Shown here: piece after piece, positions 5,478-61,892 of the stretch
How positions within the stretch are numbered: the first letter of the stretch is position 1
How the letters are laid out: every line of letters starts with the position of its first letter
Origin: Methanohalophilus portucalensis
GTDB lineage: Archaea > Halobacteriota > Methanosarcinia > Methanosarcinales > Methanosarcinaceae
Direction: 5' to 3'
Assembly: GCF_002761295.1 (NCBI RefSeq)
Contig: NZ_CP017881.1
Coordinates: forward strand, 495,087-559,086
DNA length: 64,000 bases
The notes under the pieces: model-generated
What the model saw: the letters and a program-made list of their open reading frames with translations, nothing else
Told to the model about the DNA's origin: nothing
The model's database searches: none
Translations under genes and position numbers: made by a program

Positions 5478-6356
5478 ATGGATATTGAAAAATGGGATGA
5501 ATGCCGGAGTATAAACAAAGCACTAATTGACTTTGTGGAAGAAATTGACAACGGTTCCAATATGAAGAAAGTAGTTGCCCACATATGTCAATCGGGCGGG
5601 AAAAAAACCCGTCCTGTGATCCTCCTCTTGTCATCTCGTATATGTGGCAGTGAAATTGGAAATGCCCTTGATGCTGCTCTGTCAATTGAACTTATCCACT
5701 CTGCATCCCTTATTCATGATGACCTGCTGGATAGGGGTATATTGAGAAGGGGAGCTAAGACTGCCCATGAAGTATATGGTACCCCTGCAGCAATGCTTGC
5801 GGGAGATTACTTGATATCCAAGTCCATTGAACTAATATCTGCATACTGCAAAGAAGTAGGCATGGAATTCGGCAGGGCAGGTATGGAAATGGCTGAAGGC
5901 GAGGCCATGGATGTAGATTTGCTGGAAAAGAACAGCAATAATATTGTTGAGTATTTCAATTGTATTGAAAAGAAGACGGCTTCACTTTTTGCTGCCTCGG
6001 CAGCGATGGGGGCCTATATTGCAGGAGCAGATGAGGATACAGTTTCTAAATTCAGGCTCTTTGGCAATAAACTTGGAACTGCCTATCAAATCGTTGATGA
6101 TATGCTGGAATACACCAGTAAGGTAAATAACAAGGAATCAATACACATGTCCCCATCGCTGGTAGACATATATAGGCAGGATATGACGGATGCACAAGCA
6201 ATAGAAAAAACCAGGGAAATTGTTGAACAACTAGTTTCTGAAGCACATGAAATAATCGATCATTTCCCGCCTTCTCAATCTCGAAATAGATTACATGAGA
6301 TTGCCAATTATGCCACAAAAGACCTTTTCCCTGAAGTTGGAACAAGGAAATGCTAA
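5478..6356 (+). CDS. Trans-polyprenyl diphosphate synthase
   Basis: An all-alpha isoprenyl chain-elongation enzyme of 292 aa, started at the ATG behind a GAGGT ribosome-binding site. The first aspartate-rich motif is intact (HDDLLDRG, DDxxD). The second is degenerate (VDDMLEY, so DDxxE), which suggests it may work with a partner subunit or have unusual chain-length control. Possible products are the C20-C25 chains for archaeal lipids or the side chain of methanophenazine, the membrane electron carrier of this family of methanogens. Its place next to cytochrome c maturation genes favours an electron-transport role, but that is inference. Confidence 0.8.
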   Translation: MDIEKWDECRSINKALIDFVEEIDNGSNMKKVVAHICQSGGKKTRPVILLLSSRICGSEIGNALDAALSIELIHSASLIHDDLLDRGILRRGAKTAHEVYGTPAAMLAGDYLISKSIELISAYCKEVGMEFGRAGMEMAEGEAMDVDLLEKNSNNIVEYFNCIEKKTASLFAASAAMGAYIAGADEDTVSKFRLFGNKLGTAYQIVDDMLEYTSKVNNKESIHMSPSLVDIYRQDMTDAQAIEKTREIVEQLVSEAHEIIDHFPPSQSRNRLHEIANYATKDLFPEVGTRKC

Positions 6357-8145: not shown

Positions 8146-10313
<2,168 letters not shown>

Positions 10314-51677: not shown

Positions 51678-53051
51678 TTAAAACAAACCTCGATAAAATT
51701 CATCAATTTCCCCAATGATTTCAGAATACATACTCATGTATTCATCAGTTGGTTTCATTTCGTATTTCGAATTCACATCATAGCATGATTCGAAATCTTT
51801 TCCTTCAGGGGCATCTGAAAGTCGATCTGCATATTTAGAATAGAGCATTTCAATAATTTCATTTGCCTCTGCCAGATCCAGATTCAGGGCCATCTTGCTC
51901 ACCTCGCCCATAAATCTTGATTCCAGGCCAGTCGAATGATCAACTTTCTCTCCTTTGCCTCCAAGAGGTCCGATCAGCATTTCTCTGCCACAAACCGTAT
52001 CACTTATGGCCTGAGCCGCGGTTTCATAAAACATCATATCGGTACAGCACCCTGCAATGTTGTGGAAGTATTTTGCTGTAGAATGTTGCATATTACGCGA
52101 AACCGCAAGGGAAGAAATATTTGAAGCCCACAATATTTCTTTTGTAGATGAAGAGTTTGTAGCCGAATCAATTGCTCCGCAGGCATGTATGCTTGCACTT
52201 GTAACCAGCCGGGATTGTATGGTTTCAGCAACATCAATAATAGCCAGTGCTTCTGGTGAATCTATAGCATCTTTTCCCAGAATGGGACATTGGCCGCTTA
52301 TGAAATTATTCCCGTGCTCCTGATGGAATATGGATTTATGAAAAGTTTCAAAATCGGTTTGCAGATTATCGGATTGATAGACTTCATGAATATCATTCTT
52401 TGAATATAGCTCATTTGAAGATACGACCATATGTGCCTGTGAGGTATTTGGTGTTGCCGGACCTACAAGGGTCAACCCCTCCCTGCCGGCGATTTTTGTA
52501 GCCAGTCTTTCAAGTCTTGCTTCTTCTAAAGCTACAAACATTTCCTCTGGAGTATTGGTTCTTATAGGACCGTCATTGATTGTTTGCATGCATCCGGGAT
52601 AGATCCCCTGGACTATAGGCTCAATCGCAGAACTGATATGGATATTCAGGAAATTTTTTTCAGAAACCTTCCCACCCATTGGTCCTCCTATAATTACAGG
52701 GGGCTTGCAATCCATTTCTGTCCTGCTGACAACATTTATTTTTTCCTTGAATCTCCCGATATCCACAGCGTTGGGTGTTCCAAGAGACTTCAATATTTCA
52801 TCGTTATTTACCTGGATAGTTCTGCCTGTATCAGTACAGTATATTCCTACATTTGTCAGAAGTTCGATAGCGGCTGAAAAAACAGCATCTGCCATATCAA
52901 GTTCGTATGGTATGAATTCTTCGCCATCATTTATTATATCATAATCAGCAGCCAGTTCATTGGATAATTTTAAAACATCTTCATTATGTGTATCTTCACT
53001 TTTTTCTTCACCTGAAAAAGAGTTTCTTAGATATTTATATATGTCTGACAT
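51678..53051 (-). CDS. MtmB-family corrinoid methyltransferase homologue without pyrrolysine (Val196)
   Basis: At 457 aa it matches monomethylamine methyltransferase MtmB (458 aa) along its length: EFIPYELDM, LTNVGIYCTDTGR, GGPMGGKVSE, CCTDMM, DTVCGREML, STGLESRFMGEV and the C-terminal SAPEGK-like DAPEGKDFE. MtmB has an in-frame TAG for pyrrolysine at the motif GVOGPETS; here the frame has no TAG and the aligned motif TLVGPATP has valine (V196, codon GTA at 52466-52464). The start has AGGAGGT. It is divergent from a BCCT carrier. It cannot use pyrrolysine chemistry on methylamine, so the substrate may be a quaternary amine; that is inference. Confidence 0.85.
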   Translation of the reverse strand: MSDIYKYLRNSFSGEEKSEDTHNEDVLKLSNELAADYDIINDGEEFIPYELDMADAVFSAAIELLTNVGIYCTDTGRTIQVNNDEILKSLGTPNAVDIGRFKEKINVVSRTEMDCKPPVIIGGPMGGKVSEKNFLNIHISSAIEPIVQGIYPGCMQTINDGPIRTNTPEEMFVALEEARLERLATKIAGREGLTLVGPATPNTSQAHMVVSSNELYSKNDIHEVYQSDNLQTDFETFHKSIFHQEHGNNFISGQCPILGKDAIDSPEALAIIDVAETIQSRLVTSASIHACGAIDSATNSSSTKEILWASNISSLAVSRNMQHSTAKYFHNIAGCCTDMMFYETAAQAISDTVCGREMLIGPLGGKGEKVDHSTGLESRFMGEVSKMALNLDLAEANEIIEMLYSKYADRLSDAPEGKDFESCYDVNSKYEMKPTDEYMSMYSEIIGEIDEFYRGLF

Positions 53052-53466
53052 GTAGTATACCTCCTATATTTCTATTACTTATTCCCTTATATCAATAACT
53101 GATAATCTACAAACAACATTCAAAATATTACTAAACAAAATTAATTGTTTACAAAGTTATAGAATACAAGGTTTAGGTAATAAATATTTTAAAATAATTA
53201 TTTTAAATATATTGCCTTAAATAAAAGTAAGAATAATTTGAACTTTTTTCATGTAAAGTCTCTACTTCTAAAAGTTAGATATATAATGGAAGGATACTTT
53301 ATAGTTTAATTAAGGCGTAAAATCAAAGTGTTTTTGGTCACATTTGATATAAAATAATGTAAATCAAACACTTTTGTTATTGTTAGTTTAAACAGAACCT
53401 TTACGACTAAATATATGAAAATTTAAATTTGTTCATGGTTCTTATCATTATCAAAGGAGGCATGTA
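53052..53466. promoter_or_regulatory. 415-bp divergent control region between the MtmB homologue and the BCCT gene
   Basis: This A/T-rich stretch carries the ribosome-binding sites of both genes. It holds a 9-bp inverted repeat AAAGTGTTT (53325-53333) / AAACACTTT (53366-53374), with a second repeat TTTGAT/ATCAAA (53343-53348, 53363-53368) nested inside. TATA-like sequences occur on both strands. The repeats could be operators or a folded leader for the transporter. No additional gene is seen in it. Confidence 0.5.
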
Positions 53467-55071
53467 ATGAGAAAAATGCAAAAAGGGCTTACAGACTTTT
53501 CAGACACTTTAAAGACACCGACACTATTGGTATCGTTATTTTTAGCTTTTGCATTTGTTTTAGCCGGGACGGTCTTTCCGGAGCGTTTCGGAGTTTATAT
53601 GGATTTCACCTTTAATTGGATGGTCGCAAATCTTGGCTGGTCTTTCTTATTTGGTGGCAGTATTTTTTTATTGCTTATTGTATATTTGATGCTAAGTCCG
53701 CTTGGGGATATAAAACTGGGTGGGGACTATGAAAAACCTGCTTATTCCAATCTATCATGGTTTGCCATGCTTTTCAGTTGCGGAATGGGGATTGGCCTGC
53801 TTTTCTGGGGTGTTTCAGAACCGATATGGCATTATATGTGGCCACTCTATGAACAACCCAATACATCTGAATCCCTGCATGCCGCCATGAGGTATTCTTT
53901 CTTCCACTGGGGCTTCCATCCGTGGGCAATCTATTCTGTGGTTGCGGGCTCCTTAGCATATTTTTCCTACAGGAAAGGATTGCCAATGTTATTGAGTTCT
54001 ACACTGGAACCTATACTGGGAAGAGAAGGTATTGATGGAAAATGGGGTATTGCTGTTAATACCATTGGTGTCCTTGCAACCCTGTTTGGTATTGCGACAA
54101 CTCTTGGTTTAGGGGTTATGCAGATAGGCGCCGGGCTTGAGGAATTATTTGGTTATTCCAGCGGACCTACATTATGGGTAATGATAATTACTGTTGTTAC
54201 GATTCTTGCGATAATGTCCACAGCATCCGGTATTGACCGGGGCATTAAATGGCTGAGCCAGATCAATCTGGGTGTGGCAGCTCTTTTAATGATTCTGATA
54301 TTCATTCTTGGACCAACGCTATTTACCCTTGAGCTGTTTACTCATTCAGTAGGAGGATATTTGCAAAACTTGCTCCAGATGTCCTTTGGAACAGATCCTG
54401 CCGGAGTAGGAGCTGAAGGCTGGGGGGATTCCTGGACTATCTTCTACTGGGCATGGTGGATTGCCTGGGCACCATTTGTTGGATCCTTCATTGCCAGGGT
54501 TTCAAGGGGCCGGACAATCAGAAGTTTTGTTGTAGGGGTAATGCTTGCTCCTACAGTTGTCAGTATGGTATGGTTCAGTATATTTGGAGGATCTGCTCTG
54601 TTCATCGAGCATTTCGGAGCCGGTGGAATTGCTGGAGCTGTTGAAGTTGATTCTGCACTGGGCTTTTTCAGCATGCTTAGTTTTTTCCCTTTCTCTGATA
54701 TCCTTATTGCAGTTGCAATGTTCTCAGTAGCCATCTTTTTCATAACTTCATCTGACTCGGGTACTTATGTCATAGGAATGCTGACCTCTAAAGGCAACCC
54801 CAATCCTCCGCTTCCACTGAGGATTATATGGGGTAGTCTTGAAGGAGCTGTTGCAGCAGTTCTTCTACTCGCTGGCGGACTGGGTGCCCTCCAGACAGCT
54901 TCAGTAGTCGGAGGATTCCCCTTCATGATAGTTATGCTTTTGATGCTCTATTGCTTATTGAAAGCATTATTTATGGAACTGCAGGAAGAGTCGCTGCCGT
55001 TGGAGAGGGCTAAATTAAGGGCAACAATTAATGAAATTAGAACACGGGACAATCAAAAGGACAAAGAGTGA
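53467..55071 (+). CDS. BCCT-family betaine/carnitine/choline-type transporter
   Basis: A 534-aa sodium- or proton-coupled carrier with about 12 helices. BCCT signatures are GMGIGLLFWGVSEPIWHY and WTIFYWAWWIAWAPFVGSFIAR, and the C-terminus is charged and cytoplasmic, as in osmosensing members. Glycine betaine uptake is the likely role in a salt-adapted methanogen, for osmoprotection or as carbon source. The start has an AAAGGAGG ribosome-binding site. It is divergent from the non-pyrrolysine MtmB homologue. Confidence 0.93.
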   Translation: MRKMQKGLTDFSDTLKTPTLLVSLFLAFAFVLAGTVFPERFGVYMDFTFNWMVANLGWSFLFGGSIFLLLIVYLMLSPLGDIKLGGDYEKPAYSNLSWFAMLFSCGMGIGLLFWGVSEPIWHYMWPLYEQPNTSESLHAAMRYSFFHWGFHPWAIYSVVAGSLAYFSYRKGLPMLLSSTLEPILGREGIDGKWGIAVNTIGVLATLFGIATTLGLGVMQIGAGLEELFGYSSGPTLWVMIITVVTILAIMSTASGIDRGIKWLSQINLGVAALLMILIFILGPTLFTLELFTHSVGGYLQNLLQMSFGTDPAGVGAEGWGDSWTIFYWAWWIAWAPFVGSFIARVSRGRTIRSFVVGVMLAPTVVSMVWFSIFGGSALFIEHFGAGGIAGAVEVDSALGFFSMLSFFPFSDILIAVAMFSVAIFFITSSDSGTYVIGMLTSKGNPNPPLPLRIIWGSLEGAVAAVLLLAGGLGALQTASVVGGFPFMIVMLLMLYCLLKALFMELQEESLPLERAKLRATINEIRTRDNQKDKE

Positions 55072-59081: not shown

Positions 59082-61892
59082 TTAATTTTCGGCTACAGGA
59101 AGTTTAATATGCACTTCTGTTCCCTTTCCTTCACCTTCACTTTCCACCCAGATTTCTCCATCGTGTGCCTCTACTATGGTTTTGGAGATATAGAGACCAA
59201 GCCCTGTACCGCCATATTTACGTTTCTGGGAAGAATCTATCTGGTAAAATCTCTGGAATAAATTGTCTATCATATCTTTCGGTATGCCGATTCCCGTATC
59301 TTTGATATTTATATGTATGTATTCATCTTCTTTGTTTGCAAAGATAGTAATTGAACCGCCCTTTGGAGTGAATTTGATAGAATTATCTATTATATTGGTA
59401 AACATATCAGTAAGTTTGTCCCGATCTCCTTTTATTGAAGGAAGGTCCGGTTCGATTTTCTTAATCATTTCCAGGTTTTTCTCTTCTGTCTGGATTTGCA
59501 GGTCCTCTATAATCTGATCTGTCAGTTCGGATATATTCAAGGTTTCAAAATCATACTTAACAGTGCCTGCCTGTGTGCGACTGAGGTATAGCAGTGAATC
59601 CACGAGTCTCTGCAGCCTTTTTGTATTACGCATCACGGTTTCTTCTGCATGTTTCTGTTCTTCTCCCAGTTCACCGAGGCTGCCGTCATTTAGAAGTTCT
59701 GTATAACCCATGATCGATGTGAGGGGTGTTTTCAATTCATGGCTCACATTGGAAAGGAATTCATCTTTCATTTTATCCAGTGACTTCAATTCCTCATTTG
59801 CCTTTGCCAGGTCTTCTGCATATTTCCTGAGTTCTTCTTCGGCCCTTTTACGTTCGGTAATATCACGGGCCACAACCAGGATTGTAGGTTTATCATTATA
59901 TTCTATGACACGGGCACTGATTTCCACAGGAATTGTAGTATCATCCTTGCGTCTGTATGTAGCCTCAAAGATGGCATGCCCCTTTTCTTTGACCTCTTTG
60001 ATCCTTTGGGGTATCTCTTCCATAGAAAGACTGGTGTTTATTTCTTTTGTTTTCATGCGGAGTAATTCATCCCTGCTGTAACCCACGGTTTCACAGGCCG
60101 CCTTATTAACTTCCATGATGTTGCCTTTAAGGTCGTGCATAAAGATCGCATCATTGGTGCTGGCAAAAATTGTGCGGAACTTCTCTTCTGATTTTTCAAG
60201 TTCCTTTTCAGCTTTGCGGCGCTGTACGATTCTCCACATTCCCTGCATAAGGAGGGTAAGCTGTCTTACATCAGAACTGTCATAATTTTCATTCTTATTC
60301 CCCACACCTGCAAGGGCTACAATCTTACCTCGCTCAAAAATAGGTACATCCATATGGCGAATCAGTTCCACATGGTCCTTTGGGTATCCACTTTTCCTGG
60401 CATGTGGTTTTTTGTAATCGTTATTTATAAATGGTCGTCTTTGTCGTATACTTTCTCCCCAGAGTCCCACATCTTCGATCTTGTATTCTATCTTTTTGTC
60501 CTTAATTTTACAACGATTCATTGGGGTGTCGGACCAGGATTTCAGTTGTATGCTACCTATATCTTCATCTACAAATGCAAGATAGCCAATCTTGCTTTCT
60601 GTAAGTCTAACTCCCTCAGCTCTTGCAAAATCGATGATTTCTTCCAGGGAGGCCTCTGTCATCTGGTTAAGCTTTACAAGGGTTTCCAGGCGAGATTCAT
60701 CCAGGTGGAGGGCTTCTTCGGCCTTCATGCGGTCACTGATATCTTCAACAATCCCGACTCCTCCCAACAGCTCGCCATCTTCTGATATATAGGGGCTGTA
60801 ATCGGCTTTTATGGGGGTTACTTTTTCACTTGTGGTGGAATGATAATTTCCCTCATAATGACCGGAGCGTCTCTGGAATACAGATTTTACGGCTTCATAC
60901 ATCTTTTTGTCTTTTAAGTCCTTGAGTATGTTGAAACCGATTATTTGTTCTCTGGTCACCTCGAGTATTTGCATTATATTCTCGTTGCAGTGAGTTATTA
61001 CCCCATTTTCATCAAAATGGAATATTCCTAGGGGTGAATTCTCAAAGATCAATCTGTATTTTTTTTCAGATTCCCGCATAGCCTCTTCGGCCATTTTACG
61101 GTCTGTAATATCAATTATGATCCCCTGGTAGTAAGAAGGTTCTCCAACTTCATCTCTTCCTATAAAGGACCGCTCGATCACCCAGCGTATATCTCCGGAT
61201 TTGGTGAGTATGCGGTATTCCTTGGAAAAAAAGATCTTGCCTTCAATTTCATGTTCGTTGACCTCGCTGCGTACCATATCAAGGTCCTCGGGACATATTA
61301 TGTCTCCATAGACAAGTTTGCCGGAAGTGAAATCTTCGGGCGTATAACCAAACTGGGAAATGTTTCCGGATACGAATTCCACGGGCCAGTCTTTTTCTGC
61401 AGTCCACAGGAAAGCCACTACAGGACTGTTTTTATAGATTTCTTCGAGTTTCCTGTCCGAACGGAGTCTTTTACGTAAGGTTTTCTGGCTTATCTTCTGC
61501 TCGCTAACGCTTTCTACAGTACAGATCATCCCGTCATAATTTCCTTCCTTGTTGAGTAAAGGAATCAATCTGCCTGTCTGGAAACTTAAATTGCCACCCT
61601 TTGTAATGATTGGCATAGTTTTGTAGGGAATGGGTTTAAGAGAATCTCTCGCTCTCAGGAACATTTCCCTGAAATGGGCTTCATCACCAACGCTGTGGCG
61701 GGAAGCAGACATATATTGTTCCAGTTTATTCCCCACTACTTCTTCGCTTTTGATACCGGTGATTTCTTCCATTCCTTTGTCAAAATAGATGAAAACCTCG
61801 TCTTTGTCAACGGCCCACATGCCTTTGCAAATAGTGTCAAGTATCCTTTCCAGAAGATTTTCCATTGTAGTACCCTTTGTCATCTCGCCCAT
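59082..61892 (-). CDS. Soluble multi-sensor histidine kinase (PAS-PAS-PAS-GAF-PAS-HisKA-HATPase)
   Basis: The 936-aa kinase has PAS domains at about residues 10-130, 145-270, 275-395 and 565-685, a GAF domain at about 400-560, and the phosphoacceptor H718 in NVSHELKTPLT with ATP-binding motifs DNSIKF, DTGIGIP and GGTGLGL. No membrane helix is seen, so it senses inside the cell. The GAF segment WSDTPMNRCKIKDK has a cysteine (C461) at a place I associate with heme-binding GAF domains of methanogen kinases of the MsmS type; unproven. No response regulator is adjacent. ATG 61892 lacks a ribosome-binding site; 61865 is an alternative. Confidence 0.9.
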   Translation of the reverse strand: MGEMTKGTTMENLLERILDTICKGMWAVDKDEVFIYFDKGMEEITGIKSEEVVGNKLEQYMSASRHSVGDEAHFREMFLRARDSLKPIPYKTMPIITKGGNLSFQTGRLIPLLNKEGNYDGMICTVESVSEQKISQKTLRKRLRSDRKLEEIYKNSPVVAFLWTAEKDWPVEFVSGNISQFGYTPEDFTSGKLVYGDIICPEDLDMVRSEVNEHEIEGKIFFSKEYRILTKSGDIRWVIERSFIGRDEVGEPSYYQGIIIDITDRKMAEEAMRESEKKYRLIFENSPLGIFHFDENGVITHCNENIMQILEVTREQIIGFNILKDLKDKKMYEAVKSVFQRRSGHYEGNYHSTTSEKVTPIKADYSPYISEDGELLGGVGIVEDISDRMKAEEALHLDESRLETLVKLNQMTEASLEEIIDFARAEGVRLTESKIGYLAFVDEDIGSIQLKSWSDTPMNRCKIKDKKIEYKIEDVGLWGESIRQRRPFINNDYKKPHARKSGYPKDHVELIRHMDVPIFERGKIVALAGVGNKNENYDSSDVRQLTLLMQGMWRIVQRRKAEKELEKSEEKFRTIFASTNDAIFMHDLKGNIMEVNKAACETVGYSRDELLRMKTKEINTSLSMEEIPQRIKEVKEKGHAIFEATYRRKDDTTIPVEISARVIEYNDKPTILVVARDITERKRAEEELRKYAEDLAKANEELKSLDKMKDEFLSNVSHELKTPLTSIMGYTELLNDGSLGELGEEQKHAEETVMRNTKRLQRLVDSLLYLSRTQAGTVKYDFETLNISELTDQIIEDLQIQTEEKNLEMIKKIEPDLPSIKGDRDKLTDMFTNIIDNSIKFTPKGGSITIFANKEDEYIHINIKDTGIGIPKDMIDNLFQRFYQIDSSQKRKYGGTGLGLYISKTIVEAHDGEIWVESEGEGKGTEVHIKLPVAEN

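Follow-up and report, generated by a model that had tools for sequence, protein, structure and literature searches.

The window, the whole 64,000-nucleotide stretch of the Methanohalophilus portucalensis genome that was analysed, carries a gene for a homologue of the monomethylamine methyltransferase MtmB (mtmB-A1) and, divergent from it, a gene for a BCCT carrier (BCCT-2). The reading frame of mtmB-A1 is open from ATG to TAA on the minus strand, stops being abundant on the plus strand of the same segment, and a Shine-Dalgarno-like GGAGG precedes the gene. No Rfam element was found around the mtmB-A1/BCCT locus. The features of the locus, and an unlinked corrinoid protein of the same genome (G000; 2.08 Mb in a single contig), are collected in Table 1.

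Table 1. Features of the mtmB-A1/BCCT locus (positions in the window) and the unlinked corrinoid gene (position in the genome).
Feature	Position	Strand	Evidence
MtmB homologue without pyrrolysine (457 aa), of the BCCT-linked subclade A1 in clade A	51678..53051	-	ORF; Pfam MtmB; tree; AlphaFold model; dN/dS
Val196 codon GTA, at the Pyl202 position of M. barkeri MtmB	52464..52466	-	alignment; Val in both same-genus orthologues
Divergent intergenic region, 415 bp, 22% G+C, GGAGG ribosome-binding sites on both sides, a TATA-like stretch conserved ahead of mtmB	53052..53466	.	six-region alignment; RBS sequences
BCCT-2 carrier (534 aa) with intact GMGIG motif and aromatic box	53467..55071	+	Pfam BCCT; tree; TmaT/BetP alignments
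Orphan MtqC-group corrinoid protein	G000:C1:1900222-1900875		58% orthologue of the L082 corrinoid protein; tree

The predicted protein was matched in Pfam by the MtmB family alone (PF05369), over residues 3 to 451 and profile positions 2-447 of 450, with an E-value of 2.8e-141 and a score of 471.9 bits against a cut-off of 25. An AlphaFold model built from 51 related sequences had a mean pLDDT of 94.6, and Foldseek superposed it on the MtmB crystal structures 1TV2, 1L2Q and 1NTH with a TM score of 0.94 and an rmsd of 1.4 Å. By comparison, MttB and the glycine betaine enzyme MtgB gave TM scores of about 0.55-0.58 at 10% identity, and the window protein therefore belongs to the MtmB family and is no hidden MtgB. 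The full-length MtmB relationship proposed by the initial annotation is thus confirmed, and a placement outside the family, in the MttB/MtgB superfamily (COG5598, PF06253), was rejected on both the Pfam and the fold searches. The likeness to MtgB is one of concept, that of a Pyl-less homologue which would take a quaternary amine as substrate and work with a corrinoid partner. The sole MttB of the genome is the pyrrolysine form.

When the window protein was aligned with the solved MtmB (1L2Q), the segment LTLVGPATP fell on MGVXGPETS, placing Val196 at Pyl202. The valine codon in place of pyrrolysine was thus read correctly at the outset, the sole correction concerning the strand of the gene, which is the minus one. 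Same-genus orthologues in two other species, 97% and 93% identical, both have valine at this position, so that Val196 is no sequencing slip. Identity to MtmB is 32%; Glu229 and Gln260 are retained, but Glu259, invariant in 56 Pyl-MtmBs, is replaced by glycine (Gly253), Gln333 by tyrosine (Tyr328) and Tyr335 by histidine. The change of the neighbouring segment from MDEQMP to ISGQCP, noted earlier, is accordingly real and includes the loss of Glu259. The gene also differs from those of the Pyl enzymes in lying outside any mtmC-mtmB operon. The genome has in addition two UAG-containing mtmB copies, both broken by stretches of some 100 N (L098:7504-7603, L212 ~5604-5703 and L099 ~9650-9749); these stretches are assembly gaps in near-identical copies and not deletions, and gene loss was rejected as the reason for the truncated copies.

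Relatives were searched among 112 Methanosarcinaceae genomes, in which non-Pyl MtmBs proved frequent. The MtmB tree comprised four groups, namely the Pyl-MtmBs, a small MtqB-like group, a divergent third group, and a group of 38 Methanosarcinaceae proteins with 100/100 support, here called clade A, which includes the window protein. Since this tree was rooted at midpoint only, the direction of the pyrrolysine change (lost or gained) is not readable from it, and the "loss" of the residue in the initial annotation goes beyond what the tree says of the ancestral state. Position 202 is usually methionine in clade A, and Val196 is itself a late change there. Leucine or phenylalanine sometimes replaces this methionine in clade A outside the BCCT-linked proteins, where V261 and I340 mark a group linked to mtbA. 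The subgroup of the window protein, A1, contains the two same-genus orthologues, a protein of Methanolobus bombayensis (74% identical), those of two Methanolobus genomes from metagenomes (70%) and a pair from Methanosalsum. The whole mtmB-A1 gene is under purifying selection (dN/dS 0.06-0.11), which together with the orthologues excludes a decaying pseudogene, the loosening of constraint being confined to the catalytic face. An isolated decaying paralogue, which would have been fatal to the original proposal, is therefore not what was found: the gene belongs to a sizeable clade and keeps its BCCT linkage.

The neighbours of other clade-A genes are mtbA in Methanolobus, coding for the methylcorrinoid:CoM methyltransferase (NF041608, 672 bits against a cut-off of 600), and a corrinoid protein at loci L082 and L055. 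In most Methanococcoides, the clade-A mtmB (L071, L074, L075, L076, L078, L095) is followed by Cdc6/Orc1-like and hydantoinase/oxoprolinase-type genes, and a Cdc6-like gene also adjoins the L082 locus. Clade-A relatives with 50% identity occur outside the Methanosarcinaceae set in a Methanosarcinales metagenome genome from Guaymas and in Methanomicrobia archaeon JdFR-19 (L205, L209), and no corrinoid protein was recognised beside these two genes. Methanococcoides vulcani SLH33 reportedly uses betaine, choline and dimethylethanolamine; its genome (G026) contains a clade-A MtmB (L045), and the genome search found no MtqB-type gene in it.

The BCCT carrier noted beside the gene is a conserved neighbour. 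A divergent BCCT gene adjoins six A1 mtmBs, all those outside Methanosalsum, across a gap of 380-480 bp and in three unlike flanking contexts. In the BCCT tree the linked carriers form a clade of their own, and each of the six genomes has a second BCCT in another clade (at G000:1321973 in M. portucalensis). BCCT-2 matches the Pfam BCCT domain with an E-value of 6.1e-183 and has the TM4/TM8 aromatic box of carriers of trimethylammonium compounds. All seven residues described as binding the substrate in TmaT (PMC11708041) are conserved, namely W, W and Y, then W, W and W, and the methionine of GMGIG. These residues fit a cargo of the trimethylammonium type; however, the other BCCT of the genome has the same ones, so that they do not name the cargo of BCCT-2. 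Likewise, the likeness of BCCT-2 to the trimethylamine carrier TmaT was uninformative as to substrate, the other BCCT being even closer to TmaT. BCCT-2 thus resembles the BetP/TmaT/BetT group in its aromatic box and GMGIG motif, but falls below the NCBIfam betaine-equivalog cut-off (602 against 650 bits), and its own clade adjoins an mtmB-type gene. The two families are paired independently at L092 (G005:C115), where a very divergent non-Pyl MtmB gene is divergent from a very divergent BCCT gene, next to an mtbB cluster. A long PAS histidine kinase lies a few genes from the locus (59082-61892 of the window, minus strand), and a related kinase directly adjoins the A1 mtmB of M. bombayensis (L067:10888-13917).

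The initial annotation had taken MtmB homologues without pyrrolysine to be hardly described at all, but such proteins have been known for a long time. The function of one of them was published in March 2026: MtqB of Methanococcoides methylutens Q3c demethylates tetramethylammonium and choline without pyrrolysine, retains a low monomethylamine activity, and has a close homologue in Methanococcoides sp. AM1 (PMC13044021). We recognised putative MtqB genes by their context in two genomes, G025, which is very probably that of strain AM1, and G021; the MtqB-like group of our tree, with its adjacent corrinoid gene, fits the published description. That the window protein is itself such a tetramethylammonium/choline methyltransferase seems very improbable to us. 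Both are Pyl-free members of one superfamily with tyrosine at 333 and without Glu259, and MtqC falls in the same corrinoid group as the candidate partner described below, to which it is 46% identical. However, the window protein is only 28-30% identical to the putative MtqB proteins and stands in a separate clade, each with 99-100 support; it has its own residues at 202, 229 and 259-261, the Cys-Met-Cys of the MtqB type at 259-261 being Gly-Gln-Cys and Leu229 being glutamate. The neighbourhoods differ too, MtqB having its corrinoid gene adjacent and no BCCT neighbour, and no MtqC gene adjoins mtmB-A1. On the tree and the residues we rejected its classification as MtqB.

We then compared the pocket across clade A at positions 228, 229, 259, 260, 294, 300, 324, 325, 333, 334 and 335 in MtmB numbering; Glu229, Glu259, Gln333 and Tyr335 are those which, from the MtmB structures, we take to lie around pyrrolysine. 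Nearly all clade-A proteins without a BCCT neighbour have Q, E, G, Q, H, H, R, N, Y, Y and W at these positions, the L082 protein and two Methanohalobium-type proteins being exceptions at a few of them. The six BCCT-linked proteins differ even among close orthologues, with V/V/V/I/L/F at 202, E/E/E/K/K/K at 229, G/G/C/D/S/S at 259 and H/H/R/R/W/W at 335. Among 40 positions selected objectively at the C-terminal tips of the barrel strands, taken as the catalytic face, 21 vary in the BCCT-linked group (44% in the rest of the protein) against 3 in a comparable Methanococcoides set (35% in the rest; p=1.5e-4 for fewer). The three same-genus orthologues gave a dN/dS of 0.2-0.4 for the face against 0.04-0.08 elsewhere, and other clade-A pairs gave 0-0.03 for the face. 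The catalytic face is thus the fastest-evolving part of the BCCT-linked proteins and almost frozen in the other members. As its dN/dS stays below 1, these values indicate a constraint that is specifically loosened or redirected, and not positive selection.

Such a pattern could mean that the BCCT-linked MtmBs no longer transfer methyl groups, the fold being kept for the binding, sensing or regulation of the compound carried by BCCT-2, or of corrinoid-protein traffic, with the face free to drift. The variability and the dN/dS of the face agree with this, as does the replacement of Glu229 by lysine in three of the six, this residue being constant in Pyl-MtmB and throughout the remaining clade-A members examined. 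Against it, every BCCT-linked member retains Gln260, His294, Arg324, Asn325 and the Cys340-Cys341 pair, and Pfam found no DNA-binding or signalling domain in the window protein. The absence of a corrinoid protein nearby would again speak for an enzyme out of use, but the genome-wide distribution of the candidate partner, given below, speaks against it, and on the whole we regard this explanation as rather unlikely.

Ten proteins of the genome have a B12-binding cap domain, and none of their genes is near mtmB-A1; the nearest, about 75 kb away, is not of the MtqC type. One of the ten, encoded 1.35 Mb from mtmB-A1, shares 58% identity with a corrinoid protein of M. bombayensis (L082) whose gene is in one operon with a clade-A mtmB. 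In the corrinoid tree it groups with MtqC, apart from MttC, MtbC, MtmC and MtaC, with 100/100 support. Its DxHxxG motif is intact (DTHDLG), and its gene is followed by one for a DUF1638 protein, a family for which fitness data and proteomics point to a role in B12 reactivation (PMC5764234, PMC12478193). With orthology set at an identity of at least 58%, the corrinoid protein occurs in G000, G032 and G034, each time adjoining DUF1638. We take G032 to be M. halophilus and G034 to be M. mahii. DUF1638 is also found near the clade-A gene of M. bombayensis and divergent from the clade-A gene of strain AM1. The corrinoid/DUF1638 pair lies beside a PAS histidine kinase gene (L231:7222-8697, G000:C1:1900222-1901697), and an inverted-repeat-like stretch upstream of it, ACATGTAAACAGCGTTATATGT, is conserved across these three species of the genus. 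No operator or promoter motif shared between the mtmB/BCCT locus and the corrinoid locus was found.

Within the genus, the corrinoid protein is present in all three genomes with an A1 MtmB and a second BCCT and in none of five others (Fisher p=0.018, the genomes being related and the probability thus not clean); G033 has merely a 45% relative. Within the family, 22 genomes have a clade-A MtmB that is not of the mtbA-linked group, and 10 of these encode the corrinoid protein, against 0 of 90 others (Fisher p=1.1e-8, with the same qualification for relatedness). The retention of a dedicated corrinoid protein and DUF1638 in exactly those genomes of the genus that have the gene counts for catalysis and against a retired enzyme. 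The partner was not found in the A1-group genomes G048, G054 and G073, Methanosalsum being among those without it, nor in the Methanococcoides clade-A genomes G022, G023, G024 and G026, so that the pairing is not universal.

Taken together, these observations make it fairly probable, in our judgement, that the locus belongs to a split, Pyl-independent and corrinoid-dependent demethylation system for a quaternary or betaine-type amine imported by the BCCT carrier, with mtmB-A1 as the substrate-specific methyltransferase. BCCT-2 would import the quaternary ammonium or betaine-type compound, which the MtmB-fold TIM barrel would hold in a pocket that has Val196 in place of pyrrolysine and Gly253 in place of Glu259. 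In such a pocket, the positively charged N-methyl group would need no pyrrolysine adduct and could be transferred straight to Co(I) in a corrinoid protein dedicated to the system, for which the orphan MtqC-like protein is the likeliest candidate. The adjoining DUF1638 protein may help to keep the corrinoid cobalt reduced or active, and MtbA would move the methyl group to coenzyme M. Of this scheme, the family, the fold, the altered residues, the conserved BCCT linkage and the co-occurrence with the corrinoid protein are observed, and the catalysis, the pairing with that protein, the cargo of BCCT-2 and the final methyl acceptor are inferred. The kinship with the Pyl-free MtqB (PMC13044021) makes demethylation without pyrrolysine plausible. 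Counting against catalysis are the loosened pocket, the partner missing from some A1 genomes, and the narrow substrate range reported for M. portucalensis, which is methanol and mono-, di- and trimethylamine only (PMC4928046).

The same narrow range, with no growth on quaternary amines reported, would suit a slow demethylation of an imported or surplus compatible solute such as glycine betaine, adjusting pools or salvaging methyl groups without growth. The named members come from halophilic or haloalkaliphilic genera, where the BCCT-2 clade also occurs, and betaine is a compatible solute that the genus synthesises (PMC7530209, PMC4928046). However, nothing ties the gene to osmotic control and the second BCCT already offers osmolyte uptake, and such housekeeping appears improbable to us.

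As to the substrate of the proposed demethylation system, for which the initial annotation had inferred a quaternary amine or betaine-related compound from the carrier, position 229 or 335 is occupied by a basic residue in all six BCCT-linked proteins and in no other clade-A protein examined. This feature, noticed after looking at the alignment, might serve to hold the carboxylate of a betaine. One could then imagine, tentatively and with more doubt than conviction, a second functional class of Pyl-free MtmB in halophilic methanogens that demethylates a zwitterionic betaine-type compound, having arisen within the MtmB family, independently of MtgB, by this remodelling of the face, and working together with an MtqC-type corrinoid protein encoded elsewhere and with a BCCT importer of its own.

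A literature search, which left most subscription journals outside, found no paper on the BCCT-linked subgroup, the evolution of its pocket, or the unlinked corrinoid/DUF1638 pair. What is new here is the BCCT-linked pocket evolution and the candidate unlinked partner, non-Pyl MtmBs and one function among them being already published. Non-Pyl MtmBs are a large group, whose sole assigned function dates from 2026, and to one of their clades a transporter can now be assigned, along with candidates for the corrinoid partner and the activation protein, which leads to a short list of substrates. As the pocket is nearly frozen in the rest of clade A, the A1 proteins offer a natural series for following a Pyl-type active site under substrate change. 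If the enzyme is active, it would add a quaternary amine or betaine to the substrates of Methanohalophilus, a genus thought to be limited to methanol and methylamines, and would bear on methane formation in brines and fractured shales.
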